53,507 nt of DNA from Planctomycetia bacterium (GTDB taxonomy: Bacteria; Planctomycetota; Phycisphaerae; Phycisphaerales; SM1A02). The translations under genes and the position numbers were made by a program. Shown one piece after another: positions 157 to 18,412 of this stretch. The notes beneath the pieces are model-generated. The model was not told where the DNA came from and did no database searches. It saw nothing but the letters and a program-made list of their open reading frames with translations. Every line of letters starts with the position of its first letter. The stretch's first letter is position 1. The stretch spans positions 1-53,507 of the forward strand of contig SXUI01000054.1 in the NCBI GenBank assembly GCA_005790605.1, given 5' to 3'.

Positions 157-768
157 CTAAGGTTTCCATCGGGAGAAATTTTGCAACAATCGCAAACCGG
201 CCTTGCCACTTTTTTCCGCATGGAATTGCACCGCGAACAAGTTACCCTCGCCAATCGCTACCGGAAATGTGGATCCATACTCGCACTCGGCAAACACCTG
301 CTCTGGCAAGCTGGGTTGGGTGTAGTAGGAGTGGACAAAATAAAACTCTGTACCGCTGGCCAATCCCTCAAAAACTGGGTGTTGCTGGGTGATGGTAATG
401 CTGTTCCAGCCCATATGCGGGATCTTGTATGCCGGGTCGTCAATTTCGAACCTTTTTACTTTGCCGGGCAAAATGCCCAGGCATTCGGTATCCCCTTCTT
501 CAGAATGGTCAAGAATGATCTGGCTTCCGATGCAAATGCCCAAAACAGGGATACCCGCAGCATAGGCTTGTTTAAGGGCAATATCGAGTCCACGCTCTTG
601 CAAAACTTTCATAGAGGCACCAGCATGCCCTACCCCCGGAAAAACCAACCGGTCTGAGGAGAGGATCAGCCTTGGATCGGCACTGATCTGATTGGGGATA
701 CCCAAATAATTCAATGCCCGATGCACCGAGGTTTGGTTGCCGGCTTTATAGTCAATGATCGTGATCAT
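157..768 (-). CDS. hisH: Imidazole glycerol phosphate synthase glutaminase subunit HisH
   Basis: A class I glutamine amidotransferase of 203 residues that releases ammonia from glutamine for HisF. The N-terminus MITIIDYKAGN is typical of HisH. The nucleophile elbow is GICIGSQI, with Cys near residue 80, and the His/Glu of the triad are in AVQFHAEKSG near the C-terminus. The reading frame is open back to a TTG at 786, which would overlap hisA, but the ATG at 768 gives the family N-terminus and sits 2 bp after the hisA stop, so it was chosen. It lies between hisA and hisF in one transcript. Confidence 0.93.
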   Translation of the reverse strand: MITIIDYKAGNQTSVHRALNYLGIPNQISADPRLILSSDRLVFPGVGHAGASMKVLQERGLDIALKQAYAAGIPVLGICIGSQIILDHSEEGDTECLGILPGKVKRFEIDDPAYKIPHMGWNSITITQQHPVFEGLASGTEFYFVHSYYTQPSLPEQVFAECEYGSTFPVAIGEGNLFAVQFHAEKSGKAGLRLLQNFSRWKP

Positions 769-770
769 GT

Positions 771-1496
771 TCAGACTGTTATGCAATCCTTTAAATTAAT
801 TTGGCCGGTATATAGCGCGCGGCCAATGATGATACCTGCAAGGCCGGCCAGTCTTGCTTTTTTTACTTCCTCGATGCTGGCAACCCCACCGGAAGCGACA
901 ACACGCAAGCCGGTTTGGTTTTGCAACCCTAAGGCAGAATCTATGTTGACACCTTTGCCTACACCATCACGGCTTACATCCGTCAGCACACACCACCTAA
1001 CACCGGCATCAACAAACAATTTGCCTGCATCCGCTACGGATAGTGGAAGCGATTCCTGCCAGCCCTTGATCACTACCTTGCCATCCTTCGCCCCAATATC
1101 GCCTGCGATCTTTTGGTCTCCAAAAATTGATACCGCCTGCTGTAGCAATTGGGGTTGCTGAATAGCGATAGTGCCGAGAAAAATGCGATCGACGCCAAAA
1201 GCGAGCAGTTTTTCAATCGTTTCCAAGCTGCGAACCCCACCACCAAACTCCACTTTTAAGCCAGTGGAAACGATCTTTTTCAACGCATCCATATTGGCTG
1301 TCTCATCCTCGCCAAAGGCGCCGCTAAGGTTGATGATGTGCAACCAGGCCGCCCCGGCTGAGCGCCACTTTTGGGCAAAAGCCGCCGGGTCATCACTGTA
1401 TATGGTTTGCCGGTTGGGGTCTCCCTGTTCCAAGCGGACCACTTTTCCATCCCGCAGATCGATTGCCGGAAAAACTGTGAAGGATTGTTCCGTCAT
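771..1496 (-). CDS. hisA: Phosphoribosylformimino-5-aminoimidazole carboxamide ribotide isomerase HisA
   Basis: A (beta/alpha)8 barrel of 241 residues that performs the Amadori rearrangement of ProFAR to PRFAR, the substrate of HisF/HisH. Visible marks are FPAIDLRDGKVVRLEQGD at the N-terminus with the first catalytic Asp, VEFGGGVRS in the middle, VLTDVSRDGVGKG with the second catalytic Asp, and VASGGVAS plus GIIIGRALY forming the phosphate sites. The length is normal. It starts 5 bp after hisB and ends 2 bp before hisH, as part of the his operon. Confidence 0.95.
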   Translation of the reverse strand: MTEQSFTVFPAIDLRDGKVVRLEQGDPNRQTIYSDDPAAFAQKWRSAGAAWLHIINLSGAFGEDETANMDALKKIVSTGLKVEFGGGVRSLETIEKLLAFGVDRIFLGTIAIQQPQLLQQAVSIFGDQKIAGDIGAKDGKVVIKGWQESLPLSVADAGKLFVDAGVRWCVLTDVSRDGVGKGVNIDSALGLQNQTGLRVVASGGVASIEEVKKARLAGLAGIIIGRALYTGQINLKDCITV

Positions 1497-1501
1497 GCTC
1501 G

Positions 1502-2086
1502 TCAGATCACACCTTTGGTCGACGGGATCCCGCCTCGGCGGCTATCGATCTGGGTGGCAGCATCTAAACAGCGGGCAAAGGCTTTAAATAGAGCCTCAGC
1601 TTTGTGGTGGTCGTCTCGGCCATACTCCACCCGGGCATGCAGGTTGCATTTGGCATGGACGGCAAAGGATTCAAAAAAGTGTTCGAACAGGCTGGTTGGG
1701 ATATTGCCAACCGGGCTGGGGCCAAACTGCGCGGAAAACACACTGTACGGTCGGCTAGACAAGTCCACCGCCACAAAAGCCAGTGTTTCATCCATCGGCA
1801 CATAACTATGCGCGGTTCGAACAATTCCTTTTCGGTCCGACAAGGCTTGGTCAAAGGCCATCCCAAGGGTGATGGCGATGTCCTCCACAGTATGGTGAAC
1901 ATCGATGTGCAGGTCTCCCTTGGCGTGGACCTCCAGATCGAACATCCCATGCACAGCCACATGGGTGAGCATATGATCTAAAAATCCGATACCGGTTTGG
2001 ATGGTGTGTTTCCCTGTTCCATCCAGGCACAATTCAACACGTACTTGTGTTTCATTGGTTTTCCGTTCGATCTTCGCGGTTCGCAT
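1502..2086 (-). CDS. hisB: Imidazoleglycerol-phosphate dehydratase HisB
   Basis: A single-function IGPD of 194 residues, without the phosphatase domain found in enterobacterial HisB. It carries the manganese-binding repeats GFLDHMLTH / [10 protein letters not shown] and [14 protein letters not shown] / [11 protein letters not shown]. It dehydrates imidazole glycerol phosphate to imidazole acetol phosphate, which HisC then uses. Three starts are stacked (GTG 2092, ATG 2089, ATG 2086). The ATG at 2086 was chosen because it gives the usual [13 protein letters not shown] start and lies 5 nt after GAGG. It begins 7 bp after the hisC stop. Confidence 0.94.
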
Positions 2087-2093
2087 CATCACC

Positions 2094-3206
2094 TCACTTT
2101 ACAATTTCACGCAAAGTAGCAAGCAACAGATCATTTTGTTCCGGGGTACCCACCGAAATGCGAATGCAATCGGTAAGGCCTGGTTTGTTGAAATAGCGAA
2201 TAAAAATCCCGTGATCATTGGCAAGTCGTTCTTTTAGCTCTAACGCATTGCGGCCAGTTACTGTGCACAAAATAAAATTGGATTCGCTTGGAAAAGGTGA
2301 CAGAAAACCGAACTTTGCCAATTCGACAAGCATCCGTTGCCGCTCTGCAACCAAAATGGCTACCGTGTTAAGCAGGTAGCTCTCATCCTTTAAGGCCGCG
2401 ATCGCGGCTACACTGGCGGCCACATTAACATTGTATGGTTGCTTGGCCTTCCATAACACTTGCATCATCCAACCCGGGAAAGCGCCATAGCCAACCCGCA
2501 AACCGGCCAACCCGGCAAGCTTGCTGAAGGTGCGCAGAACGATGAGGTTGTCGCGCCGGGCAACCTGTTGGATCAAACTGGCCGAGCGGCCAAGGTCACT
2601 CGGTGAGGCAAATTCAATATAGGCTTCATCGAGCACAACCAAGGCAGGTAATTCCAAAATGCGCTCGATCACTTCCCGTGTGATCAAGGAGCCATCCGGA
2701 TTATTGGGCGATGTTAGGAAGATCAGCTTTGGCTGGAATTCTTCAGCCGCTTGCAAGAGTGCCGGCAGGTCCAGGCTAAAATCTGGCTTGCGGAAAATAT
2801 CGACCACCGTGGCGCCGTTCAAGTCGCCATCGAAGCGATACATTCCAAAGGTAGGTGGGCAGTTCAGGATCACATCCCCTTTTTCAAGTGTTACCCGCAT
2901 CACCAGGTCGATCAATTCATCCGCCCCGGCGCCTGCCAACAGGTTATCGGCTGGCACAGCGCAAAAATTCGCCAGCGCGCTACGCAAGGCGCGGCTTTCG
3001 GGGTCTGGGTAGATGTGGGCAAAACGCAAGTCTGCAAGTGCCTCCCTTGCCCGCGGAGACATGCCAAACGGATTTTCATTGGCATCCAGCTTGATGATCT
3101 TGTCGGGTGGCCGGTTTATCCGCGCGGATAACACTTCGAATGGTTCGATCGGCGTATACGCAGGCAGATCGGTGATGTGTTTCGGTAATTTGATCGGGGG
3201 TGCCAT
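2094..3206 (-). CDS. hisC: Histidinol-phosphate aminotransferase HisC
   Basis: A fold-type I PLP enzyme of 370 residues that transaminates imidazole acetol phosphate with glutamate. Visible features: LDANENPFG near residue 40 (substrate loop), LTSPNNPDG (Asn binding PLP), [10 protein letters not shown] (Asp pairing with the PLP pyridine), and [17 protein letters not shown], whose Lys forms the Schiff base. Its ATG directly follows the hisD stop (TAAATG) and the Shine-Dalgarno AAGGA lies inside the end of hisD, so the two are translationally coupled. Confidence 0.95.
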
Positions 3207-4571
3207 TTATCCTTCGTTGATCCTAAAATCGGCAGAACGGGCGTGTGCTTCGAGCCCCTCGGCGCGGGCAATTCTGGCTGCCAAAGGGGAGATCTCCTGG
3301 GTTGTCTTTTTGTCCAACGCGATCAGGCTGATGATGTGGACAAAATCCCACACATTGACAGGGGAAGCAAATCGCGCGGAACCGCCGGTTGGCATTACAT
3401 GGCTGGGACCGGCGATATAATCGCCGAGCATTTCAAAACTCTGTTCGCCTATAAAAATACCCCCGGCGTTCTTCACCTTATCGCTCAGGCTCCATGGGTC
3501 ATCCACCGCAAGGCACAAATGCTCAGGGGCGTATTGGTTGTTGATGTTTATGGCTTCTTCCAGGTTTTCAGTGATCACGATGCCGCTTTGGTTGGCGAGC
3601 GACTGGTCGAGGATCTCCTTACGCGGCAAGGTTGCGGCTTGCTTTTCCAGCTCGGTTTGTACCTGTTTTGCAAGATCCAACGATGGTGTAAGCAAGATGG
3701 CTGAGGCCAGCACATCATGTTCTGCCTGGGCCAGCATATCTGCTGCCACCCAAGCCGGTTTTGCATTGCCATCAGCAATGATCATCGTTTCAGTCGGCCC
3801 CGCAAGGCCATCGATGCCCACCATTCCAAATACCTGACGTTTGGCAAGGGTTACAAACAAGTTTCCCGGGCCAAAGATCTTATCCACTGGTGGAATGGTT
3901 TCGGTACCAAACGCCAGCGCGCCGATCGATTGTGCCCCACCGATGGCATACACCTCGGTAATGCCGATCACGGCACAGGCTGCCAAAATGATCTTTGGCA
4001 GATAAGGGAAGATCGGCGATTCGGCCGCATCTTGCCCTGAAGCGCGAACAGGCGGGGAGACGATCACGATCTCTTTAACCCCGGCTACCTGGGCGGGCAC
4101 CGCGCTCATCAACACAGATGACGGCAACGCTGCCGTTCCACCAGGTACATATACGCCTACCCGATGATGCGGGCGAATGAACTGCCCGAGCGTGCCACCC
4201 AAGTCGTTGGTGACCCAACTATGGGTTGGTTGCTTTTGGTAAAACGAACGGATCCTTTGCGCAGCAACTGTCAAGGCTTCCCGCTCCGCGTGGGGGATCA
4301 ATTCCAACGAACGTTGGATATCTTCTACCGGAACTTTATTCGAAACGCCCCTTGGAAAACCATCCAGTTTTTGGTTCCACAATGCCAAACCGGCATCTCC
4401 GTTTTCACGAATATCACGGATGATGCGTCGCACCGCCTCTTCAGGCATGATCCGCTCGCCAAAGGTAGCTTCTATGCGCGCCAACATGCCCTCTGTAACT
4501 TTGACTTCATCAGGCGGAATGCGCTTTAATATGGTTTTTTTTGCATCTTCAACTGAATAGATCTTAACCAC
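3207..4571 (-). CDS. hisD: Histidinol dehydrogenase HisD
   Basis: A 454-residue zinc enzyme that oxidises histidinol to histidine in two NAD-dependent steps. Typical segments are YVPGGTAALPSSVLM, YAIGGAQSIGALAFGTETI, DKIFGPGN, GIDGLAGPTE, DMLAQAEHD (zinc ligands Gln/His), NNQYAPEHLC and GPSHVMPTGGSARF. The frame is open to a GTG at 4577, but the GTG at 4571 lies 7 nt after GAGG, whereas the first lies only 1 nt after it, so 4571 is preferred; both start codons are unusual. It is the first gene of the his operon. Confidence 0.94.
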   Translation of the reverse strand: MVKIYSVEDAKKTILKRIPPDEVKVTEGMLARIEATFGERIMPEEAVRRIIRDIRENGDAGLALWNQKLDGFPRGVSNKVPVEDIQRSLELIPHAEREALTVAAQRIRSFYQKQPTHSWVTNDLGGTLGQFIRPHHRVGVYVPGGTAALPSSVLMSAVPAQVAGVKEIVIVSPPVRASGQDAAESPIFPYLPKIILAACAVIGITEVYAIGGAQSIGALAFGTETIPPVDKIFGPGNLFVTLAKRQVFGMVGIDGLAGPTETMIIADGNAKPAWVAADMLAQAEHDVLASAILLTPSLDLAKQVQTELEKQAATLPRKEILDQSLANQSGIVITENLEEAININNQYAPEHLCLAVDDPWSLSDKVKNAGGIFIGEQSFEMLGDYIAGPSHVMPTGGSARFASPVNVWDFVHIISLIALDKKTTQEISPLAARIARAEGLEAHARSADFRINEG

Positions 4572-4607
4572 TGTCACACCTCAATTTTGTCGCAAATTCT
4601 GAGCAGT

Positions 4608-4616
4608 ATTGTAACA
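4608..4616 (-). promoter_or_regulatory. Candidate extended -10 promoter of the his operon
   Basis: On the minus strand this reads TGTTACAAT, an extended -10 element (TG, one base, then TACAAT). It would start transcription near 4601, about 30 nt upstream of the hisD GTG. No good -35 box is seen 17 bp upstream. No his-leader peptide or T-box was recognised in the 180-bp leader region. Confidence 0.4.
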
Positions 4617-4750
4617 CCCAAATATTCGCGGTTACTCGTACAGACAAGATTTGACAGGATCACTTACCCGCAGCATGCATCGCACATAATCATGGAAAAG
4701 ATCCTTTGGCCAAGCAGTCCGATCTCTTTCTGCATTTTTGGCAATGCCTA

Positions 4751-4782
4751 AAAAAAAGCTACCGGCGCAATCACCGGTAGCC
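4751..4782 (-). terminator. Rho-independent terminator of nrdJ
   Basis: On the minus strand an 8-bp perfect stem (GCTACCGG / CCGGTAGC, loop of 8) is followed directly by seven T residues. It lies about 30 bp after the nrdJ stop and separates the nrd transcript from the his operon. Confidence 0.88.
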
Positions 4783-4809
4783 ATAAATGTTATTGCCGAT
4801 CTGCGAGGG

Positions 4810-7371
4810 TTAGCACTCGCTAAAGCCGCAGGAGTAACACTTGCGGCAACCTTCTTCATTGACCACTGCTGCCTCGCCACATTCCGGGCACAGATCCCCA
4901 AAAGCCATCGGCTGGGAGATCCCAGAGTATGTACTGGTTGTTTGGCTACTATCCATTTCCTCTTCCGATTCCTTGGAACCTTCCCAGGTACGCAGATACT
5001 CACCCAAAACCTGACCAACACCATCGGGCAGGCTGCGTACACGGTGAGGGCCAAACCCTAACGCCCGGCCGCCGCCAATACCCATCAACTGTGCAACCAC
5101 CTCTCGCATCCTGTCGATCGGGGCGATCGGAGATGCCAATCGCAGAATGTAGGAGATCAATCGGCCGATCGCCTCTGATACGGCGGCGGTATCGGACCCA
5201 GCCTTGGAAGTATTTACGAATACTTCGAATGGCTGGTTACCGCCATTGGCATTGACAGTTACAAACGCCTTACCGAGAGGTGTATCTACGTTGAAGGTCA
5301 TGCCGTGCAAGGAACGGGGGCGCGGCTTTTTAGTCTCGTGCCAGATCACTTTTTGCGTTTCGGGTACTGGCAGATGATCAGCAACAGGGGTTTCTTTTTT
5401 GCTGGCGGTGGCGTGGGTCTCCAACACTACTTTGTCGCGGCTTCCGGTAACGTACACGGTGATCCCTTTTGCACCCAGTTCCCAAGCCAACAAATACGCT
5501 TTGGCAACCTCATCTTCGGTGGTGCCTTCAGGGAAGTTGATCGTTTTGGAGATCGAGTTATCTACAAAGGCCTGCAAAGCCGCGGCCATCCGAACGTGCT
5601 CTTCGGCTGTCACATCGCCAGCGGTAACAAATACATCACGTAAATTACTCGGCAAATTGGATATGGTTTGGCAGCTGCCGAAATTCATTACTTGCTCAAA
5701 GATATCTTGTTGGTCATCCAGCGGGACTCCGGCCTTGCGCAGGGCTTTTTCGAACGCAGGCGACCCATAGGTAAGTTTGAGGTCTTTGCCATTGTCGTTG
5801 ACATGACGGATGTAGGCCAAGGCAAAGACCGGCTCACAACCGTACCCTTCGCAACCTGCTACGGTGGCGATGGTGCCTGTTGGTGCTACGGTTGTTTGGG
5901 CAGCATTGCGGATGCCAAAAGCACGGATACCATCTACAATTTCCTCCCAATTGAGCTCAGGGCGTTCCCAACTGGACTGATATGGTTCCAATGGCTGCGG
6001 GACGGTCCATTTCAAATTTTCAGGGTCGTAAACCGAGCCGCTGATCGCAGGGAAAGCACCACGACTTTTGGCGAGCTCGATTGATGTTTGCATACAGTGG
6101 TAGCGGATAAATTCCATCACCTGGGAAGCAAATTCCTGGCCTTCCGGGGAGCCATAGCGGACGCCAACATGGTACATCAGGTCGGCAAGGCCCATGATGC
6201 CCAAGCCAATACGGCGAGCCCGCAAGGCAGCCTCGCGCAGTTGCGGTACGGCAGGTACATAGGCGTTTGCTTGCACAACATCATCCAAAAAGATGGTGGA
6301 GAGAGAAATGCTTTGTTTTAATCCATCCCAGTCCACTGAACCATTTTCACCGAAATGCTCTGCCAGGTTAATCGAACCCAGGCAGCAGTTTTCGTAAGGT
6401 CCAAGCCATTGTTCGCCGCACGGGTTGGTGGATTCCAACGGATACAAATGCGGTACCGGGTTTTGACGGTTGGCGGCATCCAGGAAAAGCACTCCGGGTT
6501 CGCCATTGTGGTGTGCCTGGGTCACGATCTGTTCAAACAGGTCTCGCGCCCGAACAGTTTTATACACCACCAAAGGAATATTATGTTCCCGCGCCTGTTC
6601 AATGGTGCCGCGGAATTTTCGGTATTCAGGTGAGGCGATGTCAGGGAAAACCAAATCCCAATCTTTGTCCTCGCGTACAGCTTCCATGAAGGCATCGGTA
6701 ATGCCCACGGAAATATTGAAGTTGGTGATGGCGTTTTCACTGGTCTTGCAGGTGATGAATTCTTCCACATCCGGATGGTCTACCCGCAATACACCCATGT
6801 TGGCACCCCGGCGGGTTCCGCCTTGGGCGATCTCTCCAAAGGCATGGTCGTAGACGTGTAAAAATCCTACCGGGCCGGTGGCTGTGCCAGAGGAGCTTTT
6901 GACCAAACCACCTTTGGGGCGCAACCGGGAAAAGGAGAAGCCATTTCCGCCACCGGTTTGTTGGATCAGTGCCGCATCTCGAAGCGATTGGAAGATGCCG
7001 GATGGGTCCTTGCCCATATCGTCTGTGATCGGCAATACGAAACAGGCAGCCAATTGGCCCAATGGTGTTCCTGCCCCGGTAAAGGTGGGGGAATTAGGGA
7101 AGAATTTTTTACTGCTGAGAAGGGTGTAAAAATGCTGGGCGCGCTGCATTACATCGCCATCCCATTCAACTTCCACCTTGGCAACATGGTAAGCCACACG
7201 CCAAAACATTTCTTCCACCGTTTCGGCAGGCTTGCCATCGTCACCACGCCTAACATAGCGTTTTAGAAGTACCTGTTTGGCATTTTCTGTAAGCGCTACC
7301 TGACCCAAACCAACCGGAATATCGGGGGTTGGCAAAATACCATGTTTTGAAGGCATGTTAACTGTTGCCAT
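4810..7371 (-). CDS. nrdJ: Adenosylcobalamin-dependent (class II) ribonucleoside-diphosphate reductase NrdJ
   Basis: A single-chain class II ribonucleotide reductase of 853 residues that makes dNDPs with a B12-derived radical and no oxygen. Visible parts: an N-terminal helical region, [17 protein letters not shown], the barrel motif STNPCGEQ with Cys and Glu of radical chemistry, [10 protein letters not shown], and [19 protein letters not shown]-type domain follows ([18 protein letters not shown]), and a C-terminal zinc-ribbon (CPECG near the end, then [12 protein letters not shown]) provides the shuttling cysteines. The frame is open 33 codons further upstream, but the ATG at 7371 has GGAG in front and gives the family N-terminus. 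It follows nrdR by 40 bp. Confidence 0.94.
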
Positions 7372-7411
7372 TTTTTCTCCTTTTTGCTCGGCGGTAACAA
7401 TTAGTAGCTGA

Positions 7412-7870
7412 TCATTTCTGTTCCGCCTCAAGCAGACGGTCAATTTCAGCCCGGATGGACCGCAGGTCATCCAGTTTTAAATAAACAGTGGCATAGCGAA
7501 TATAAGCCACCTGATCAATTTCCTTTAGGCCTGCCGTAACCAAATCCCCCACAACTCTTGAGGATACTTCGGCTTTGCCCATTTTTTGCAGTTCTGCCTC
7601 TACTTTGCCAACCAGACGTTCGATATCAGCCGCCGAAACCTTGCGTTTGGCGCAGGAGATACGGATACCACGGGCGAGTTTTTCGCGATCAAACTCCTCG
7701 CGAGTACTATCCTGCTTGATCAACAAGGGGGTTGCCAGGATCGGCCTTTCGTAAGAACTGAAACGCTGGCCGCATTTTAGGCACTCACGACGCCTGCGAA
7801 TTCCACCATGGCTGTCGTGGGTTGTGTCGATCACTTTGGATTCGTAATGCTGACAATAGGGACAACGCAT
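7412..7870 (-). CDS. nrdR: Transcriptional repressor NrdR
   Basis: A 152-residue repressor of ribonucleotide reductase genes that senses ATP/dATP. The N-terminus [16 protein letters not shown] plus [17 protein letters not shown] forms the Cys4 zinc ribbon that binds NrdR boxes. The rest is an ATP-cone ([20 protein letters not shown] type), here with [20 protein letters not shown] and [13 protein letters not shown]. It is immediately upstream of nrdJ and very likely cotranscribed with it, which fits autoregulation of the pair. Confidence 0.95.
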
Positions 7871-7900
7871 CTTTCTCCATTAATAGAACATTTGTAGCCG

Positions 7901-7910
7901 CCATATATGG
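7901..7910. promoter_or_regulatory. Possible NrdR box (palindrome)
   Basis: CCATATATGG is a perfect 10-bp palindrome 31 bp upstream of nrdR. The known NrdR box is a 16-bp palindrome with core CwATATAwG; this site matches at all core positions except the two w positions (C/G instead of A/T). The position, about 35 bp after the predicted transcription start, would suit autorepression. Only one box is seen, whereas NrdR boxes usually come in pairs. Confidence 0.35.
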
Positions 7911-7952
7911 ATTAGAAGACGCGATGACCCTGCTCTATACGGCAATAAAAAG

Positions 7953-7981
7953 ATTTTAGCATAGCGCGACCATGGTAGCAA
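7953..7981 (-). promoter_or_regulatory. Candidate sigma-70 type promoter of nrdR-nrdJ
   Basis: On the minus strand TTGCTA (-35) and TAAAAT (-10) are separated by exactly 17 bp. Transcription would start near 7945, giving a leader of about 75 nt that contains the CCATATATGG palindrome. The region from 7871 to 8037 is AT-rich and holds no gene. Confidence 0.5.
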
Positions 7982-8037
7982 TGACCCATTCGTTAAATTT
8001 AAACTTTTTTAATGTTAAAGAATGGGGGGCAGGATCA

Positions 8038-8802
8038 TCACCGGACCTGGTATCCGGTTAGGCGCGAAACCAGGCTTTGAAGCAAGATAATCGGTGCTAA
8101 AAAAGCCAGGTGAAGAACATTACACACGCCGAAAATCAGGACCGCGATGCGGGAAAAATGGCCGAACGGTGATGCCATGGCTGTTTTTAACCAATCGCCA
8201 GCGCCAGCCAAAACCGCCAAACCAAGGATACCCGCCGAAAAAAATAATAGCGGGAACCAGGCGTGTCTGTCAGATTCTGAAGGCATCATGGTCGTAGAGA
8301 CTGCAAAGACCAAATAGATCCATAGCCATGCGTCTGGCACCTGAAAAACTGAACCCCACAATTGGGGGAGAAGCCGAGGACCGAGCTGTTCGGTTGCCAA
8401 AATGGGCAAACCGAATATGTACTGCGCAACCAACAAGATCACCCCCATACCACTGATCAAGGGCGCTACCCCAACCACGGAATCGCGCACAAAATCGGTC
8501 GCCGCTACTTCTACATATCCCAGCTGCACTTTTCCATTTGGCAACACTTTAGGTATCACCGAAAAACGGCCGGTCTTGACCCGCAATATTTTGGCAGCAA
8601 AAAAATGGCTTAACTCGTGCAATAAAACTCCGGGTAAAAACAGGAAGGAAAAAATGCCAATGGTTATGCCAAGGTCGTGCGTTAGCAGCAACAATAGCCC
8701 CTGCAGTGCCTTGTGCAACCAACGCTGCAACAACATCAGCAAAAACAACATTGCCAACAACCAAAATACACTTTCCAACACCAAGCGGGTTTCTTCAGCC
8801 AT
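8038..8802 (-). CDS. Membrane metalloprotease, M50 (site-2 protease-like) family
   Basis: A 254-residue polytopic membrane protein with about six hydrophobic segments. The HELSH motif near residue 62 sits at the membrane edge, as in M50 zinc proteases, and is preceded by a hydrophobic helix ending FLPGVLLHELSHF. A later acidic ligand could be the Asp in MMPSESDRHAW. A charged stretch after HELSH (VKTGRFSVIPKVLPNGKVQLGY) resembles the cytoplasmic segment of small M50-like proteins. No PDZ domain is visible, so the substrate is unknown. It starts 12 bp after the terminator that ends tpiA. Confidence 0.7.
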   Translation of the reverse strand: MAEETRLVLESVFWLLAMLFLLMLLQRWLHKALQGLLLLLTHDLGITIGIFSFLFLPGVLLHELSHFFAAKILRVKTGRFSVIPKVLPNGKVQLGYVEVAATDFVRDSVVGVAPLISGMGVILLVAQYIFGLPILATEQLGPRLLPQLWGSVFQVPDAWLWIYLVFAVSTTMMPSESDRHAWFPLLFFSAGILGLAVLAGAGDWLKTAMASPFGHFSRIAVLIFGVCNVLHLAFLAPIILLQSLVSRLTGYQVR

Positions 8803-8814
8803 ATCGGTTAAATT

Positions 8815-8849
8815 AACAGCGGCACGGGTTCCAGACCCATGCCGCTGTT
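8815..8849 (-). terminator. Hairpin terminator after tpiA
   Basis: A 14-bp inverted repeat (AACAGCGGCA core, loop of 7). On the minus strand the one imperfect pair is a U-G wobble, whereas on the plus strand it is a C/A mismatch, so the minus-strand transcript is the one that folds. It is followed by an AT-rich TTAATTTAA. It lies 12 bp after the tpiA stop and just before the M50 gene. Confidence 0.7.
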
Positions 8850-8861
8850 CGGGCTATCAGG

Positions 8862-9662
8862 TTAATTGGAAGCAGCCTGAACGATAGCGATAAAATCATC
8901 GCTCTTGAGGCTTGCTCCGCCTACCAAAGCTCCATCGATATCGGGCTTGGTAAAGTACTCGGCTGCATTGGCAGCATTGACGGACCCGCCGTACAGAATG
9001 CGGATCTTCTGGGCTACATCGCTGCCAAATTGATCCGCAAGTGATTTGCGAACAATATCGCAATGCACCTGCTGAGCGTCATCCGCAGTAGCGGCTAAAC
9101 CGGTACCGATCGCCCAGACTGGCTCATAAGCGACGACGAGGCCGCTCGCCCGTTCTTCGCTAATACCGCTGAGGGAACTTCGTACCTGCTCGTCGATCAC
9201 TGCACAGGCGCGACCTTCACGACGCTGCGCCTTGGTTTCCCCGACGCAAAGCACCGGAATCAGCCCATTCTCGACCGCTCGCGCCAACTTCACTCTCAGA
9301 AGCGCGTCAAGTTCGCCAAGTCCATGACGCCGCTCCGAATGCCCGATAAGCACGCAGCGGCAACCGAGGTCGACCAACATGGCAGCGCTTGTCTGCCCCG
9401 TGTACGCCCCCGCAGCGTGAGCACTCACATCTTGGCCGCCGACAAGCACCGGCCGGTGTCCGACCGCGTGCGCCGCGGAGTGGAGATACGGAAACGGCGG
9501 AAAGATCGCGATATCGAGGCGCTCGGCGAGTTGCGCGCATCCATTCGCGATGTCGTCGGCCAACTCGGCTGCCTGCGCGACATCCGTATTCATCTTCCAG
9601 TTGCCACCGATGAATGGACGGCGCGTGGGGCGTGCGGCACCGGAATGCAACGACTGGCTCAT
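8862..9662 (-). CDS. tpiA: Triosephosphate isomerase (chimeric composition)
   Basis: An intact 266-residue TIM barrel that interconverts dihydroxyacetone phosphate and glyceraldehyde 3-phosphate. The catalytic Lys is in GGNWKMN, the His in LIGHSERR, the Glu in AYEPVWAIGTG, and the phosphate loop in YGGSVNAAN and LVGGASL. The N-terminal two thirds use the GC-rich codons of the genes to the right. The C-terminal third, after the AYEPVWAIGTG motif (9,098-9,131), uses the more AT-rich codons of the genes to the left. The frame is open to 9710, but the ATG at 9662 was chosen because it leaves room for divergent promoters with alaS. See the findings for the junction. Confidence 0.9.
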   Translation of the reverse strand: MSQSLHSGAARPTRRPFIGGNWKMNTDVAQAAELADDIANGCAQLAERLDIAIFPPFPYLHSAAHAVGHRPVLVGGQDVSAHAAGAYTGQTSAAMLVDLGCRCVLIGHSERRHGLGELDALLRVKLARAVENGLIPVLCVGETKAQRREGRACAVIDEQVRSSLSGISEERASGLVVAYEPVWAIGTGLAATADDAQQVHCDIVRKSLADQFGSDVAQKIRILYGGSVNAANAAEYFTKPDIDGALVGGASLKSDDFIAIVQAASN

Positions 9663-9708
9663 GCTGCAAGCGTACACCGAGGATGCTCTCCCGTACGCTT
9701 GCGACCCC

Positions 9709-12546
9709 ATGCGCCCGTCTACCGCCGTTGCTATCCGTCAAGCGTTCATCGACTTCTTCATTGCGAAGGCGGGACACACCTTTGCGCCATCAAGCGCCGT
9801 CGTTCCGCATGATGATCCAACGCTTCTGTTCACGAACGCCGGAATGAACCAATTCAAGGATGTCTTTCTTGGAAGAGGCAAGCGCAACTACACACGGGCC
9901 GTCAATACACAGAAGTGCATTCGCGCGGGCGGCAAGCACAACGATCTTGAAGATGTGGGCAAGGACACCTATCACCACACATTTTTTGAGATGTTGGGGA
10001 ACTGGTCGTTCGGCGACTACTTCAAGTCAGAATCCATTCGCTGGGGATTCGAGTTACTCACGGAGGTGTACGGCCTCGATCCCAATCGGCTCTACGCAAC
10101 TTGGTTTGAGGGAAACAAGGAAGCTGGCCTCGAGCCCGATCTCGAGGCGAAGGCGCTTTGGGAATCACTCCTGCCCGCGGGTCATGTCATTCCTGGCAAC
10201 ATGAAGGACAACTTCTGGGAGATGGGCGAAACGGGCCCTTGTGGACCTTGCAGCGAAATCCACTTCGACCGAATCGGAGGGCGAAACGCCGCGCAACTCG
10301 TCAACAGCGGCGATCCTGATGTCCTTGAGATTTGGAATCATGTGTTTATCCAGTTCAATCGTGAACCGGATCGCTCGCTCAAATCACTTCCGGCAAAACA
10401 TGTCGACACCGGCATGGGTCTTGAGCGACTCGTCTCCGTCATTCAGGGCAAGCGCTCGAACTATGACACGGACCTGTGGTCGCCAGTGTTTGCAGCAATT
10501 CAAACACGCACCGGCGCTCGGCCGTACGGAGGCAAGCTCGATGACTCTGTCGATATCGCGTATCGCGTGATTGCAGATCACATTCGATGTCTCTCGCTTG
10601 CGATCACGGACGGCGCGAATCCTTCCAACGAAGGTCGTGGATATGTGCTCCGTCGCATCCTTCGGCGCGCGGTGCGTCATGGGCATCAAACCATGGGCGT
10701 GCGCGGGCCATTCCTTCACGACCTCGTGAACGCGGTGGTGCTTACGCTCGGCGATGCGTTCCCAGAGGTTAAGCAACACGCGACGCGAGTTGCGCAGGTC
10801 ATCCTCGATGAAGAAGTGCAGTTTGGGCGAACCCTTGAGCGAGGCCTCGCGCTCTTCGGCGAGGCGGCCGCACGCGTCCGCACGCAATCGGGCAACACGA
10901 TCCCCGCGCAAGATGCGTTCAAACTTCACGATACCTTCGGGTTTCCTATTGACCTCACGCAAGTGATGGCGGAAGAGGCTGGGTTAGGTGTTGATGTCGC
11001 TGGATACGAAGCCCTCATGGAGGAAGCCCGCGAAAAGAGCCGTGCGGTCCAAGGCACGGATGCGGAAATGCACTTCCCACCAGACGCCATCGCGAAGCTC
11101 GAAGCATTGCAGGTCCACGCGACGGATGATTCAACCAAGTTCGATCCAAAGCCACTCACCGCCACCGTGCGCGCGATCTGGAATGGCACTAGTTTCGACG
11201 AGCACGCGGATGCTGACGCGGAACGACTGGTCGCGGTGGTCTTCGGCCGCACGCCTTTCTATGCGGAAATGGGCGGACAGGTCGCCGATCACGGCGTGTT
11301 CCAAGCGGAGCATGCCAGTGGCGAACATGCGTCGATCTCCATCACCGATGCGAAACGCGTCGGCGGCTATGTCTTGCACATTGGGAAGGTGACACGAGGT
11401 CGCTTGCGCGTTGGCGATGAAGGAACGCTCATGATCGAGCGCGAACGCCGCGAACTCATTCGCGCGAACCACACAACTACGCATCTTCTCAACCTTGCGC
11501 TCAGAGCGGAACTCGGTCCTGATGTGGAACAGAAGGGTTCGATGGTCGATCGAGAACGATTGCGATTCGACTACAGCGCGAAGCAGGGATTGAGCCTCGA
11601 GCAAGTGAGATCCATCGAAGCGCGCGTCAACGACGCAATCCGCGCCAACCTGCTCGTGGATGCACAGGAAGTTTCGCTCGCAGCTGCGCGCACCATTCAC
11701 GGCGTCCGCGCAGTCTTCGGAGAGCGGTATCCCGACCCCGTACGCGTGGTCTCAATCGGCGCATCAGTGGATGCGCTTCTCGCAAATCCGAGTAACGCCG
11801 CATGGGCGCTTCAGTCCACCGAATTCTGCGGCGGTACGCATCTCGCACGCACCGGCGACGCAAAGCAGTTCGTCCTCGCGAGTGAAGGCGGCCTCGCCGC
11901 AGGCATTCGCAGAGTCTTCGCCTGGACTGGTGCGGCCGCCGCGGCGGCAGACGCAACTGTTGAAGGGCTGCTCAATCGGGTTTCCCTCGCTCTTGAGCTC
12001 TCCGGCCCTGAACTTCTCGCGGAATCTGCGGACATTTCGAAGTCCGCTCAGGCGCTCACGCTTGGCGCGCTCGGACGCGCGGCGTTCGATACCGCGATGG
12101 AGCCACTAAAAGCCAAAGCGAAGGCCGCGCGCAAAGATGCAGAGGGGGCGATGCGCGATCGCGCCGTCGCACAAGCACGCGAACTCACCGAACAACACGC
12201 CGCAAGCGGCGCCGGCGCAGACGCGGCGCTCATCGCCGTCATCGACGATGCAGACACGCCCACGCTCATGGCTGCACTTGATGTTGCACGCACACGACTT
12301 CCGTCGACTGCGACGATGTTTCTGAGTGCCGATCACGACGAGAAGAGAGTTTCTCTCGCCGCGATCTGTCCAAAGTGTGCGATCGAGAAGGGACTGAAAG
12401 CTGGTGAGTGGGTGAAGGTCGCAGCAGTTGCTTGCGGCGGCAACGGTGGCGGAAAGCCCGATGCGGCTCAGGCTGGAGGGAAGGATCCTGACAAACTGCA
12501 CGAGGCGCTACTCGCTGCACGAGCATTCGCCAACCAAACGCGCTAG
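9709..12546 (+). CDS. alaS: Alanyl-tRNA synthetase
   Basis: A 945-residue class II aminoacyl-tRNA synthetase that charges tRNA-Ala and edits Ser/Gly mischarging. Domains in order: catalytic core beginning IRQAFIDFF and including LLFTNAGMNQFKDVFLG and GNWSFGDYFK (motif region), tRNA recognition, then the editing domain with zinc ligands HTTTH near residue 590 and FCGGTH near 700, and the C-terminal Ala-rich C-Ala domain ending with GGNGGGKPDAAQAGG. The frame is open to 9550; the ATG at 9709 gives the family N-terminus, while an ATG at 9661 would overlap tpiA. It diverges from tpiA. Confidence 0.96.
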   Translation: MRPSTAVAIRQAFIDFFIAKAGHTFAPSSAVVPHDDPTLLFTNAGMNQFKDVFLGRGKRNYTRAVNTQKCIRAGGKHNDLEDVGKDTYHHTFFEMLGNWSFGDYFKSESIRWGFELLTEVYGLDPNRLYATWFEGNKEAGLEPDLEAKALWESLLPAGHVIPGNMKDNFWEMGETGPCGPCSEIHFDRIGGRNAAQLVNSGDPDVLEIWNHVFIQFNREPDRSLKSLPAKHVDTGMGLERLVSVIQGKRSNYDTDLWSPVFAAIQTRTGARPYGGKLDDSVDIAYRVIADHIRCLSLAITDGANPSNEGRGYVLRRILRRAVRHGHQTMGVRGPFLHDLVNAVVLTLGDAFPEVKQHATRVAQVILDEEVQFGRTLERGLALFGEAAARVRTQSGNTIPAQDAFKLHDTFGFPIDLTQVMAEEAGLGVDVAGYEALMEEAREKSRAVQGTDAEMHFPPDAIAKLEALQVHATDDSTKFDPKPLTATVRAIWNGTSFDEHADADAERLVAVVFGRTPFYAEMGGQVADHGVFQAEHASGEHASISITDAKRVGGYVLHIGKVTRGRLRVGDEGTLMIERERRELIRANHTTTHLLNLALRAELGPDVEQKGSMVDRERLRFDYSAKQGLSLEQVRSIEARVNDAIRANLLVDAQEVSLAAARTIHGVRAVFGERYPDPVRVVSIGASVDALLANPSNAAWALQSTEFCGGTHLARTGDAKQFVLASEGGLAAGIRRVFAWTGAAAAAADATVEGLLNRVSLALELSGPELLAESADISKSAQALTLGALGRAAFDTAMEPLKAKAKAARKDAEGAMRDRAVAQARELTEQHAASGAGADAALIAVIDDADTPTLMAALDVARTRLPSTATMFLSADHDEKRVSLAAICPKCAIEKGLKAGEWVKVAAVACGGNGGGKPDAAQAGGKDPDKLHEALLAARAFANQTR

Positions 12547-13001
12547 CTCTTGCAAAGCGAACTCGTTGCTAGGGCTCTCACCCCACTTCTGTGTATGTGG
12601 AGATATCACCATCCGCTCGACCGTATATTGAGAGCAGGAACCTCAGCGCCGCAGCTTCGTGATGGAACCGCGAAGCGACGATCGCAAGAGGCAAACATCC
12701 GGACTGCCACGCCACGAATTTTCGACGAGAGAGTGCGCCCACCGAACACGGCACACCTCTCCGTCGTAAAGCACTCACTATGTACGGCCGCGCGACTCCG
12801 CGATCGTGCATAGCATCAGCTGCAGCTCATCACCCCTCCGGGACCTGGTTGGTCGCAAGCAGGATGGCCGCCCGCCAAGCATTGCCCATGCTGGCGGGCG
12901 GTTGTGTTAGGAGAAGCGCTGTCGATCGCAATAGTTTCAGCAACTCCCGCGCGCAGATCTCGCTTCTCGCGCAGTCGAGCACTTTCGATATCTTTCCCCG
13001 C
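12547..13001. other. 455-bp gap between alaS and acs with two strong hairpins; no gene recognised
   Basis: No convincing coding region was found; short ORFs here lack family motifs. Two inverted repeats stand out. At 12,778-12,813 a 9-bp stem (CTATGTACG / CGTGCATAG, one G-U pair) encloses an inner CGCG stem. At 12,868-12,901 a 13-bp G/C stem (CCGCCCGCCA / TGGCGGGCGG plus TGC pairing across a one-base bulge) has a loop of about 7 and is followed by TTGTGTT, a poor T-tract. They may be an alaS terminator and/or structured leader of acs. No -10/-35 pair was convincing. Confidence 0.5.
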
Positions 13002-15008
13002 ATGTCGATTTCGCAAGTCTCGTCCACTTCGGTTGAGTCGCTACTCAAGGAGGATCGCATCTTTCCGCCTCACACCGCTCAAGCCGACGCGCTTGGTGGT
13101 GCGAATGTTGAGAGCCTAGAGCAGTACCACGCCCTCCACGCGCGCTCGGTCGCGGATCCAAGTGGTTTTTGGGGCGAAATCGCGCAGGACTTCGAGTGGT
13201 TCAAGCCATGGACGAGCGTTCTTGAGTGGAATTGTCCGGACGCGAAGTGGTTTGTGGGCGCGCAGACGAATGTGTGCTTCAACGCGATCGACCGCCATGT
13301 GCTCGAGGGCCACGCGAACGATGTCGGACTCATCTGGGAAGGCGAGCCACAAGCGAGCGGAATGCCAGAAGTGCGACACCTCGCCTATGGCGAGCTCCAA
13401 GACGAGGTCTCGCGATTCGCCAACGCGCTCAAAGCGCTTGGCGTGAAGAAGGGCGAAATCGTCACGCTCTACATGGGCATGGTTCCTGAGTTACCGATCG
13501 CGATGCTTGCATGCGCGCGCATCGGCGCCGCACACAGCGTCATCTTCGGCGGCTTCCCCGCACCGTCCATCGTCGACCGCGTTCTTGATGCGAAGTCGCG
13601 CGTGATCGTCACTTGCGATGGCGCATGGCGCCGCGGAAGCGTTGTTCCGCTGAAGAAGAATGTGGATGAAGCGATGCAGTCGTTGGTCGCGCAAGGACAC
13701 GCGATTGAGCACTGTGTTGTGTTGAAGCGCACGGCGACTCCGATCGAGTGGAACGCCGCGCGAGACCACTGGTGGCACGATGTCATCGCGAAGGAATCGA
13801 GCGAGTGCCCATGCGAGGCCGTCGATGCAGAGGACTTGCTGTTCGTGCTCTACACCTCAGGATCCACCGGAAAACCAAAGGGCATTCGGCATACGAGCGG
13901 TGGCTACATGGTCTACACCGCCTACACCGCGCGGATGACTTTCAACCTCAAGCCCAACGCGAATCATGTGTTCTGGTGCACGGCAGACATCGGATGGGTC
14001 ACAGGTCACTCCTACATTGTCTATGGCCTACTGCCCAATCGCGTGCCGACATTGATGTATGAAGGCGCCCCAAATTTTCCCGCAGAAGATCGTTTTTGGG
14101 AGATCGTCGCGCGGCATCGCGTGACGCACTTCTATACCGCGCCAACCGCTATTCGCGCCTTCATGAAGTGGGGGGAGTCGCATCCGAAGAAGCACGATCT
14201 TTCATCCCTCAAACTGCTTGGCACAGTTGGTGAACCGATCAATCCAGAGGCGTGGATTTGGTATCACGAACAAATCGGCGCCTCGCGTTGCCCGATCGTT
14301 GACACCTTCTGGCAAACCGAAACCGGTGGGCATGTGATTACACCGCTCCCCTGCGCGACGCCAACCGTGCCGGGATCTTGCACCCTTCCGTTCTTCGGCA
14401 TTGACGCGGCAATCGTCGATGAAACCGGAAACGAACTTCCTCCGAACACCGGAGGACTCCTCGTCATCCGCAAGCCATGGCCCTCCATGCTCCGAGGCAT
14501 TCACGGAGATCGACAGCGATTCATCGATACCTATTGGTCGCGAATTGCCGGCATGTACCTCGCGGGCGATGGTGCGCGCCGCGACGAACGCGGCTACTTC
14601 TGGATCATGGGACGCATCGATGATGTGATCAATGTCTCCGGTCATCGACTCGGCACGATGGAAGTTGAGAGCGCGCTCGTCTCGCACCCAGCAGTCGTTG
14701 AAGCGGCAGTCGTAGGCATGCCGCATGAAATCAAGGGAACCGGGATTGCAGCCTTTGTCACGCTCAGCCTCCAGGCGACCGCGAGTGAGGCGCTCAAAGC
14801 GGAACTGCGCGAGCATGTTTCAAGCGTGCTCGGCGCAATCGCAAGACCCGACATGCTGCGCTTTACAGCAGCACTCCCCAAGACCCGCTCCGGAAAGATC
14901 ATGCGTCGACTGCTGAGGGATGTCGCCGCGGGCAAAGAGTCTACGCAAGACACTTCCACTCTCGATGACTTCGGCGCGCTCGCCGCGCTACGAGGAAACG
15001 ACGAGTGA
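13002..15008 (+). CDS. acs: Acetyl-CoA synthetase (AMP-forming)
   Basis: A 668-residue adenylate-forming ligase that activates acetate through acetyl-AMP. Motifs: LYTSGSTGKPKG (P-loop like A3), GWVTGHSYIVYG, DTFWQTETGGH (A5), YLAGDGARRDERGYFWIMGR (A7/A8 hinge) and the C-terminal KTRSGKIMRR, whose Lys is the catalytic residue normally controlled by acetylation. The frame extends upstream to 12780, but that stretch has no family similarity; the ATG at 13002 gives a normal N-terminus with FWGEIAQDFEWFKPW following. The stop codon overlaps the next gene by 4 bp. Confidence 0.95.
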   Translation: MSISQVSSTSVESLLKEDRIFPPHTAQADALGGANVESLEQYHALHARSVADPSGFWGEIAQDFEWFKPWTSVLEWNCPDAKWFVGAQTNVCFNAIDRHVLEGHANDVGLIWEGEPQASGMPEVRHLAYGELQDEVSRFANALKALGVKKGEIVTLYMGMVPELPIAMLACARIGAAHSVIFGGFPAPSIVDRVLDAKSRVIVTCDGAWRRGSVVPLKKNVDEAMQSLVAQGHAIEHCVVLKRTATPIEWNAARDHWWHDVIAKESSECPCEAVDAEDLLFVLYTSGSTGKPKGIRHTSGGYMVYTAYTARMTFNLKPNANHVFWCTADIGWVTGHSYIVYGLLPNRVPTLMYEGAPNFPAEDRFWEIVARHRVTHFYTAPTAIRAFMKWGESHPKKHDLSSLKLLGTVGEPINPEAWIWYHEQIGASRCPIVDTFWQTETGGHVITPLPCATPTVPGSCTLPFFGIDAAIVDETGNELPPNTGGLLVIRKPWPSMLRGIHGDRQRFIDTYWSRIAGMYLAGDGARRDERGYFWIMGRIDDVINVSGHRLGTMEVESALVSHPAVVEAAVVGMPHEIKGTGIAAFVTLSLQATASEALKAELREHVSSVLGAIARPDMLRFTAALPKTRSGKIMRRLLRDVAAGKESTQDTSTLDDFGALAALRGNDE

Positions 15009-15466
15009 GCAAGCGGCCTGAAGGGACCCCGCATTCGCGCGACGCGGCGCCTCGAGCAACCGCGGCGGACCACGCTCGACTTCGCGCACAACACGCGAGT
15101 GAGCGCGCGGAAGACTATTGCGAGGCAATCCAAGATGCGATCGATGCGACTGGTGTGAGTCGAGTTGTGCACCTCGCGCGCCGATTCGGTCTGTCGCATG
15201 TCACCGTGAGCCGCACGATCGCCCGCCTCGGGCGTGAGGGGCTGCTTGAGTCTGCACCGTATCGACCGATCGTGCTCACGCCCAAGGGACGCAAACTTGC
15301 GGAAGCCGCTCGGGCAAGGCACGAGCTCGTGCACGCATTCTTGCTCGAACTGGGCGTTGATGATGCGACAGCTCGCATCGATGCCGAAGGCATTGAACAT
15401 CATGTGAGCCCAGCCACGATCGACGCATTCGCGCAATTCCTCGCCACGCGCCGAGCGCGACCGTGA
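15005..15466 (+). CDS. mntR: MntR-like manganese-responsive regulator (DtxR family)
   Basis: A 153-residue helix-turn-helix protein. ERAEDYCEAIQDAI, then VVHLARRFGLSHVTVSRTIARLGREGLLE (winged helix), PYRPIVLTPKGRKLA, ARHELVHAFLLELGV and AEGIEHHVSP match MntR, including the Glu/His residues that bind metal. The family represses manganese uptake genes when Mn is high. It starts at a GTG overlapping the acs stop (GTGA), and no Mn transporter is visible nearby. About 35 residues precede the conserved start, with no alternative in-frame start seen. Confidence 0.85.
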   Translation: MSKRPEGTPHSRDAAPRATAADHARLRAQHASERAEDYCEAIQDAIDATGVSRVVHLARRFGLSHVTVSRTIARLGREGLLESAPYRPIVLTPKGRKLAEAARARHELVHAFLLELGVDDATARIDAEGIEHHVSPATIDAFAQFLATRRARP

Positions 15467-15508
15467 CCCAACGAATCGAGAGGCGGTCGACTATTCTCCG
15501 GCACCATC

Positions 15509-16921
15509 ATGACTGCTCCTGACGCACCGTTCATGCTCTCCGTCTCAGGCGCGCGAGGCATCGTCGGCGCAAGTATGACGCCTGTCGTCGCAAGCAAGTT
15601 CGCTTCCGCCTTTGGATCGCACTTGTGTGCCGCAAGACGATCTTCCGACGCGCGACGCCCGAAGCTCGCGCTCGGACGAGACGGTCGCGCGGGAGGAGAG
15701 GCGTTCGCGCATTCGGTGAAGGGCGCGCTGACTGCAGTTGGATGCGATGTCGTCGACTTCGGGGTCGTGATGACGCCAACCATTGGCGTGATGATCCGAG
15801 AGCTCAATCTCGATGGAGGCATGGTCGTCACCGCAAGTCACAATCCGCTTGAGTGGAATGGCCTGAAGTGTCTCAACGAAGACGGCCTCGCGCCGGCCAA
15901 AGCGGAAGCGGACGCGATCATCGCTCGCTTTCGAAGTGAACAGTTTCTGTTCGTGGATGCTGAACGCATCGGAGTAGCAACCACGCGAAGCGACGCACAT
16001 GAGATGCATGTCGCGAAAGTGCTCTCTTTGCTTTCGCCTAAGAGCGTGCAAGCGATCGCTGCACGAAAGTTTCGCGTCGTGCTCGACAGCGTGAATGCAT
16101 CCGGATGCGTCCCAGGTCGGATGCTCCTTGAACGCCTCGGCTGCGAACTCTCCCATCTCAATGGTGAAGCAACCGGCATCTTTGCACATCGACCTGAACC
16201 CGTCGAGGAGAACCTCGGACAACTCTGCGCAGCAGTCGCGTCAACGCGCGGGACAGCAGTTGGATTCGCACAGGATCCCGACGCGGATCGAGTTGCGATT
16301 GTCGATGAACGCGGTCGGTTCATCGGCGAGGAGTACACCCTTGTGCTGTGCGCGTGCGCGATGCTCGCGCGCAGCGGACCGACCACGATGGCGGCAAATC
16401 TCTCGACGTCGCGCATGATCGATGATGTTGCGGCTCGCTATCCCGGCACGAGCGTGCTCCGCACGCCGGTCGGCGAGGCGCATGTCGTGAGCGCGCTCAA
16501 GCCTGCAGGTGGTCGAATCGGCGGCGAAGGCAACGGCGGCGTGATCGTTCCCGAAGTCTGCTTCGTGAGGGACTCGCTCTCCTCGATGGCCCTTGTGCTT
16601 GACCTTCTCGCGTCGCACCATCCTCAGTCACTTGCACAGCTCGTCGAAAGCATGCCTCGCTACACGATGCTGAAGACCAAACTGGATCTCGCGGCAATCG
16701 GCGGAAACGCCGCGGTTCCAGCAGCCCTTTCGAAAGTGAAACACGCGTTCGCCAAGGAGCGCATCAACGATGCTGACGGCGTGCGTATTGATTTCGATGA
16801 CGGCTGGGTGCACTTGCGCGCATCCAACACGGAACCGATCGTCCGGGTCATCGCGGAAGCCGCAACCGCCGAGCGCGCGCAGGCACTTGTACAGCAATGC
16901 CGCGCAGCCGCCGGGCTCTAG
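15509..16921 (+). CDS. glmM: Phosphoglucosamine mutase-like alpha-D-phosphohexomutase
   Basis: A 470-residue four-domain phosphohexomutase. SVSGARGIVG starts domain 1, VVTASHNPLEWNG holds the phosphoserine, DPDADRVAIVDERG binds the metal, GGEGNGGVI is the sugar-recognition loop and RASNTEPIVRVIAEA is the phosphate-binding loop. The EGNGG loop is closer to phosphoglucosamine mutases, including archaeal-type ones, than to the GEMSG of phosphoglucomutases, so glucosamine-phosphate is the favoured substrate, with phosphomannomutase activity possible. It would feed UDP-GlcNAc synthesis. Confidence 0.8.
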   Translation: MTAPDAPFMLSVSGARGIVGASMTPVVASKFASAFGSHLCAARRSSDARRPKLALGRDGRAGGEAFAHSVKGALTAVGCDVVDFGVVMTPTIGVMIRELNLDGGMVVTASHNPLEWNGLKCLNEDGLAPAKAEADAIIARFRSEQFLFVDAERIGVATTRSDAHEMHVAKVLSLLSPKSVQAIAARKFRVVLDSVNASGCVPGRMLLERLGCELSHLNGEATGIFAHRPEPVEENLGQLCAAVASTRGTAVGFAQDPDADRVAIVDERGRFIGEEYTLVLCACAMLARSGPTTMAANLSTSRMIDDVAARYPGTSVLRTPVGEAHVVSALKPAGGRIGGEGNGGVIVPEVCFVRDSLSSMALVLDLLASHHPQSLAQLVESMPRYTMLKTKLDLAAIGGNAAVPAALSKVKHAFAKERINDADGVRIDFDDGWVHLRASNTEPIVRVIAEAATAERAQALVQQCRAAAGL

Positions 16922-16963
16922 GTGATCGACTAGGGAATCGACTGGGCAGTACACTTCAAGCGC

Positions 16964-17443
16964 ATGTGTCTCGCTCGATCCACGAAGCTCGCCCACAACG
17001 CACTCTTCTCGTGCCTGCTTCTGTGCGCTTGTGTCAGTTGCGGTACAGGGGTGCGCACCGACCCTGCGAAGGCCACGCGCGCATATCCGTTTGAACTCTC
17101 ACAGAAGCGAGTGCTCAACGCGCAAGTGCTCAATGTCGACGCGACGATGGTGATCGTCAACGCCACGCTTGAGGAGTTCAAGGAAGTCGATGTCTGGCTC
17201 AATCAGCGGTACCTGCAGCATGTGCAACACATCGCTCCCGGCGAAACCATCCGACTCGCGGTCGAAGACTTTTGGGATCACCGCGGAGAAGCTCCCTTCC
17301 CTGGCGGAATCTTCCGCCGCTTTCAGCCCACGCCGATTCGGCTGGTGCAGTTTCAAACCGCAGCAGGCGATGAACTGATCGGTCTCATTTCGATCCCTAC
17401 GGAACGCGAACTCGATCGCGCGCGTCTCGCAACTGGGAACTGA
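16964..17443 (+). CDS. Small predicted lipoprotein, unknown function
   Basis: A 159-residue protein whose first 26 residues form a signal peptide with several Cys near the end of the hydrophobic stretch (LLLCACVSCGTG); either the LCAC or CVSC position could be lipidated. The mature part is short, beta-rich in appearance, and has a conserved-looking NVDATMVIVNATLEEFKEVDVWLN segment. The family was not recognised. It follows the mutase by 42 bp on the same strand and converges with thyX. Confidence 0.65.
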   Translation: MCLARSTKLAHNALFSCLLLCACVSCGTGVRTDPAKATRAYPFELSQKRVLNAQVLNVDATMVIVNATLEEFKEVDVWLNQRYLQHVQHIAPGETIRLAVEDFWDHRGEAPFPGGIFRRFQPTPIRLVQFQTAAGDELIGLISIPTERELDRARLATGN

Positions 17444-17464
17444 TCCCACTTCGGACCGAGAGGC

Positions 17465-18412
17465 TTAGAGCCCGAGCTGCGAACGCTTCGCTTCCCACTC
17501 CGCGCGCTCCCGAGAATTCTCCGTCGCGAGCGGCTGCCCACTTCGCAACGCCTCGACTTCAAGTGCGGTGAGATGCATCGACTTCAGCCGATAGTCCTCA
17601 AACGCCTCGCACGCGATGGGCACGATCGGCTTGATCAACGCGAACATCGCGCGCGCAAAGTCTTGAATCTCAAGTTGTGCATGATCATCCATTCGGAGCG
17701 AGAGGAAGTGGAAGATGTTGTGCAGATCGCATTTCCAATACCACTCGGTGTACAGACTGACCGGAAGTGCCGCGCGAGCAAGCTCGCGGGCAACCCCCTG
17801 CTCGATGAGCTTGAGATACTTCGCGTAGTGCGCCTCGGCATCCGCGAGGAGTTCGAGAAACTGCTCGGCTGTTCCAACGTCGATGGTGCCATCGGAACCT
17901 TGGCGATTTGACTTCGATTGCTTGCGCACGCTTGAGATGGAGGGGCGATAGAAGCGATCGGGCATGATCGAGTATCGCGCGGAGCATTCGTTCACATTCG
18001 CGGTCCGATGGCGGATCCATTGCCGCGCGATGAAAATAGGCATCGCGATGTGGAACTTGAACTCGACCATCTCGAGTGGCGTCGTGTGCCGATGGCGCAA
18101 GAGGTAGCGCACAAGCCCGCGATCCTCGTTGACATGCTTCGTCCCATCGCCGTAGGACACACGCGCGGCTTGCACAATGGCAAAGTCAGCCGTCTTTCCT
18201 TCAGGGACGAGTCGCGGCATCGCGTCGCACAGTGCAACAAATCCATGCTCGTGCACTGGAATCTGCCAGCGGCTGCTTCCGCCCATCACATCGATAAGTG
18301 GAGTTTCTGGAGCCGTGCGAACCATCGGTCGAACTGGCGCGCCCGCCATCATTTCCGGCAGAACAGATGTCGTTGTGGTCGCGCGTTGTTCGGTGGGCAC
18401 ATCAGATGGCAT
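17465..18412 (-). CDS. thyX: Flavin-dependent thymidylate synthase ThyX
   Basis: A 315-residue FAD-dependent enzyme that methylates dUMP with methylenetetrahydrofolate. The ThyX signature RHRTANVNECSARYS is complete, with HTTPLEMVEFKFH before it and DLHNIFHFLSLRMD near the C-terminus for flavin and dUMP binding. About 70 N-terminal residues precede the core, longer than the Thermotoga enzyme. The frame is open to a TTG at 18463, but the ATG at 18412 is preferred; an ATG at 18352 is also possible. Confidence 0.92.
   Translation of the reverse strand: MPSDVPTEQRATTTTSVLPEMMAGAPVRPMVRTAPETPLIDVMGGSSRWQIPVHEHGFVALCDAMPRLVPEGKTADFAIVQAARVSYGDGTKHVNEDRGLVRYLLRHRHTTPLEMVEFKFHIAMPIFIARQWIRHRTANVNECSARYSIMPDRFYRPSISSVRKQSKSNRQGSDGTIDVGTAEQFLELLADAEAHYAKYLKLIEQGVARELARAALPVSLYTEWYWKCDLHNIFHFLSLRMDDHAQLEIQDFARAMFALIKPIVPIACEAFEDYRLKSMHLTALEVEALRSGQPLATENSRERAEWEAKRSQLGL

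Follow-up and report, generated by a model that had tools for sequence, protein, structure and literature searches.

The GUNC paper (PMC8201837) describes misassembly as the wrong placing of fragments from multiple sources into chimeric contigs and treats it as relatively rare compared with mis-binning. Set beside such contigs, the one analysed here does not differ in kind, since fragments of different organisms lie in a single contig; what sets it apart is that the join falls in frame within a housekeeping gene, so that the gene looks normal. The gene is tpiA, which encodes triose-phosphate isomerase (TIM). Like a known TIM, the hybrid product scores above the curated NCBIfam cut-off of TIGR00419 (193.6 bits against 130.6), but unlike a known TIM gene, the host's own copy appears to be split across two contigs, C41 (the window's contig) and C18. 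In the literature searched we found no paper that names the donor record and none that appeared to treat chimeric TIM in metagenomes, which does not imply absence from print.

Our analysis indicates, with a probability of roughly 97%, that the window (the whole stretch of DNA analysed, 53,507 nucleotides) holds DNA of two different bacteria, from position 1 to about 9.1 kb and from 9.1 to 53.5 kb, that was joined by an assembler. The contig is thus most likely chimeric and does not encode a domain-swapped enzyme. The chimera sits in an assembly of 3.03 Mb in 80 contigs with an estimated completeness of 99.02% and contamination of 1.93%. The initial annotation, made from the sequence alone, had already preferred a misassembly between two organisms, and this reading is strengthened by the recovery of both missing halves, one on the Chloroflexi contig SXKT01000054.1 and the other at the start of C18. 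Features of the window are collected in Table 1.

Table 1. Features on either side of the tpiA junction, in window coordinates.
Feature	Positions	Strand	Remarks
Foreign stretch past the Chloroflexi contig end	1-3345	minus	hisH, hisA, hisB, hisC and 3' end of hisD
hisH	157-786	minus	above curated cut-off of at least one NCBIfam model
hisA	771-1496	minus	best NCBIfam score 227.6, just below cut-off 228.95
hisB	1502-2092	minus	above curated cut-off of at least one NCBIfam model
hisC	2094-3206	minus	above curated cut-off of at least one NCBIfam model
hisD	3207-4577	minus	above curated cut-off of at least one NCBIfam model
Stretch matched by SXKT01000054.1	3346-9119	minus	about 99%
nrdJ	4810-7470	minus	above curated cut-off of at least one NCBIfam model
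nrdR	7412-7870	minus	above curated cut-off of at least one NCBIfam model
254-aa protein gene beside Chloroflexi tpiA	8038-8802	minus	99% identical on SXKT01000054.1 (L033), 8579-9343
Hybrid tpiA ORF	8862-9710	minus	282 aa, open throughout
Chloroflexi part of hybrid tpiA	8862-9099	minus	about the last 80 residues; protein identical to SXKT01000054.1 tpiA
Shared run, join within	9100-9119	minus	20 bases common to window and SXKT01000054.1; codons of VWAIGTG
Host part of hybrid tpiA	9120-9710	minus	about residues 1-197; relatives' identity and host-like composition
Host alaS	9709-12546	plus	divergent from tpiA; 803.5 bits to TIGR00344, alignment beginning at ORF residue 62

The donor was found by a scan with the 254-aa protein encoded beside tpiA. 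Seven loci were returned, one of them the nearly identical copy on SXKT01000054.1, a record of 14,033 bases named 'Chloroflexi bacterium isolate F1-120-MAGs121'; best segments at the other six loci were 31-42% identical, and these distant relatives belong to Patescibacteria and others. The 254-aa protein itself matched nothing in NCBIfam (E values up to 1e-10) or in Pfam (up to 1e-4); it carries an HELSH motif, which may point to a membrane metalloprotease. BLASTN of window positions 3346-9137 against SXKT01000054.1 gave 99.17% identity over 5792 columns, with 46 mismatches and 2 gap openings. The record carries an intact 252-aa tpiA at 7761-8519, which also exceeds the TIGR00419 cut-off (204.2 bits), with further genes beyond it. 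Outside the foreign stretch of the window, the Chloroflexi contig has no match in the window's own genome.

Near the junction, identity between the two sequences is unbroken from 8929 to 9119 and is followed by mismatches at 9120, 9129 and 9132, and in the 5' part of the gene beyond the junction just 10-18 of every 30 bases are equal per ungapped block. Since exact identity stops at 9120, the join is placed in the 20-base run common to both. The initial annotation had located the change inside one open reading frame, at the codons of the Glu motif (9,098-9,131), and the join does fall within that interval. Because the gene lies on the minus strand, the right-hand side encodes the N-terminal part of the hybrid TIM and the left-hand side its C-terminal part. 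Compared separately, the two parts of the protein differ in their affinities. The N half is 73% identical to the TIM of the same-genus genome G003 and 59% to that of G002, and the C-terminal tail is only 62% and 56% identical to these; over that tail the window's protein and that of SXKT01000054.1 are identical, from VVAYEPVWAIGTG through the C terminus.

Base composition agrees with this division. The GC content is 51.6% for positions 1-9100 versus 59.8% for 9101-53507. As training data for fourth-order Markov models we used only sequence from outside the window, namely the non-overlapping part of SXKT01000054.1 and 20 kb of contig C18 of the window's own genome. With these models every one of the nine kilobases in 1-9000 was donor-like and every one of the 11 kilobases in 9001-20000 was host-like, as were all 15 blocks to the right of 9100 (3 kb each, the last shorter). 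The cumulative score reached its maximum at 8891, which is some 210 bases away from the join. The shift in genome character that the initial annotation had described at about 9.1 kb is evident in both GC content and the composition switch.

The first 3345 bases of the window lie past the end of the Chloroflexi contig, and their composition is also donor-like. No DNA match to this stretch was found in the Chloroflexi MAG, which is a partial assembly of 1.6 Mb, in a search run without a positive control, and HisC was therefore used to place the stretch. Across the Chloroflexi MAG and its 30 relatives, 31 genomes in all, the best HisC match is 71% identical; among the 40 relatives of the window's genome HisC matches are at most 36% identical. 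The MAG itself is without this HisC, its HisC-like matches being weak (30% or less among those listed).

The host's native tail would be found on C18. This contig holds the sole other tpiA match in the window's own assembly, at its very start (positions 9-230), in a frame that opens at the last Gly of WAIGTG and reaches a stop; secG and yicC come next. The C18 tail is 75% identical to the genes of both G002 and G003; its secG is 80% identical to that of G003 and 74% to that of G002, and its yicC 96% and 90%, respectively. The third same-genus genome, G001, had no tpiA match. On one contig of G003, tpiA, secG and yicC are grouped with alaS, which adjoins tpiA and is truncated by the end of the contig. 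Loci with up to 1.5 kb on either side were taken from 29 of the 39 relatives with a tpiA match, and secG is near tpiA in 23 of them. Based on these comparisons, the native host tpiA most likely consists of the right part of C41 together with C18. The ends of the two contigs have four bases only in common (CCGG), which could arise from homologous codons anyway, and so what links them is homology, gene order and complementarity rather than overlap. In two of the relatives the tpiA match is broken as recorded: that of G018 (C2:273646-274476) is in two pieces, and the one of G026 (C98:45411-46190) contains one internal TAA.

The position of the join may be accounted for by the motif. The TIM motif pattern is present at 30 of 30 loci (the 29 relatives' loci and the donor) and is thus nearly invariant. 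For the shared runs we relied on the comparisons of the donor with each of the 29 relatives, because most of the 435 possible pairs compare relatives of one order. The longest run shared with the Chloroflexi tpiA is at least 20 bases for 6 of the 29 relatives' genes, and five of these six runs overlap the motif; the longest, 29 bases, is shared with G009. Among all 435 pairs, 148 have a run of at least 20 bases and 67 of these lie in the motif. A shared run of about 20 bases at this motif is no rare coincidence. These counts agree with two further statements of the initial annotation, namely that the motif is nearly invariant and that two unrelated tpiA genes could share a stretch there long enough to join contigs.

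We therefore propose the following course of events. Both tpiA genes would encode VWAIGTG with apparently the same 20 bases, and this run would form a branch point in an assembly graph built from short words. At the branch, the 5' part of the host gene would have been continued with the 3' part of the Chloroflexi gene, and the true host continuation would have been left as a separate contig, C18, beginning at the branch. The first four bases of C18 are the final four of the run, after which the contig departs from the window. These four bases are the independent view of the host sequence, as the host bases over 9104-9119 are visible in the window alone; all 20 are probably present in the host, and C18 is probably the direct continuation of its gene. 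We infer the assembler to be the maker of the join from the two orphan halves. The reading frame survives because the shared run occupies the same codons in both genes. As the initial annotation had observed, the protein stays in frame; even so, the 282-aa hybrid TIM probably exists in no cell.

The other reading given in the initial annotation was true recombination at the conserved site, in which the host took up Chloroflexi DNA in vivo and thereby acquired a working hybrid enzyme together with the his and nrd genes. We consider this very improbable. That the 282-aa ORF is clean and in frame, as expected of a real gene, and scores as TIM counts as a point against misassembly; moreover, 45 columns within 3346-9119 (about 0.8%) differ between the donor segment and the Chloroflexi contig, so that the segment is no literal copy of it. 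However, a difference of this size is to be expected from another strain of the same Chloroflexi. The left part of the window also shows the donor's own arrangement and not a fragment among host genes. A native-type tail with secG and yicC is still present in this assembly, starting at the same codon at the end of a contig, and this orphan end counts against a natural recombinant TIM since it would require a mixed population. Such a population can be imagined, with a lineage of the community carrying a Chloroflexi-tailed tpiA through recombination over about 20 bases beside an unrecombined majority that yielded C18, and we hold this version to be just as improbable. If it were true, the lineage would have brought his genes and nrdJ into a genus where hisD and hisC were not found. 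In the 29 relatives' loci, none of them from the same species, neither the window's nrdR nor its 254-aa protein gene occurs near tpiA.

Least probable of all is the insertion of a large Chloroflexi segment into the host tpiA, with the left part of C41 extending past position 1 until it meets C18 at a second junction: C18 does begin within tpiA and C41 does end inside the foreign stretch, but the edge of the insert would need an exactly matching in-frame 3' part of another tpiA, and no recombinase was found among the eight main ORFs scanned in 157-8802 (NCBIfam; main ORFs only). In view of C18 and the donor contig, both true recombination and an inserted segment were rejected.

If, as we conclude, the contig is a misassembly, the his genes, nrdJ and nrdR of 157-7870 are misattributed and cannot be credited to this genome. 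The his/nrd set that the initial annotation had recognized on the left was recovered with NCBIfam models as hisH, hisA, hisB, hisC, hisD, nrdJ and nrdR, with hisA just under its cut-off. The sole hisD match of the window's own genome lies within the foreign stretch, as does its sole HisC match at E values up to 1e-25. Among the relatives, hisD was found in none of the 3 genomes of the same genus, in 2 of the 21 others of the same family and in 11 of the 16 of the same order; for HisC at the threshold just given, the counts in these groups were 0, 2 and 9. A separate nrdR-type match, 39% identical, is present on contig C1 of the window's genome. Uncorrected, the genome would be credited with histidine biosynthesis genes and a B12-dependent ribonucleotide reductase of Chloroflexi origin, and the first 9.1 kb should come out of it. 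More generally, caution is called for because a housekeeping gene can remain clean and in frame after a join within an invariant protein motif. On a separate point, the hisD counts suggest that the family of the window's genome may largely lack the standard histidine pathway.

Some minor observations concern the host side. The start of alaS at 9709 was taken from the TIGR00344 alignment, the ORF being listed from 9550. With tpiA starting where listed (9710, minus strand) and alaS at its likely start (plus strand), the two would overlap in one CATG (9708-9711), so that the genes are divergent and abutting; an alternative, later tpiA start near 9662 is possible. Further to the right, positions 19120-21225 encode a 701-aa protein that looks secreted and combines BNR (sialidase-type) repeats with a laminin-G-like domain and, at the C terminus, a dockerin. 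The dockerin_GC model scores 27.3 bits on this protein, just under its cut-off of 29, and the match serves as a hint on the host phylum only.
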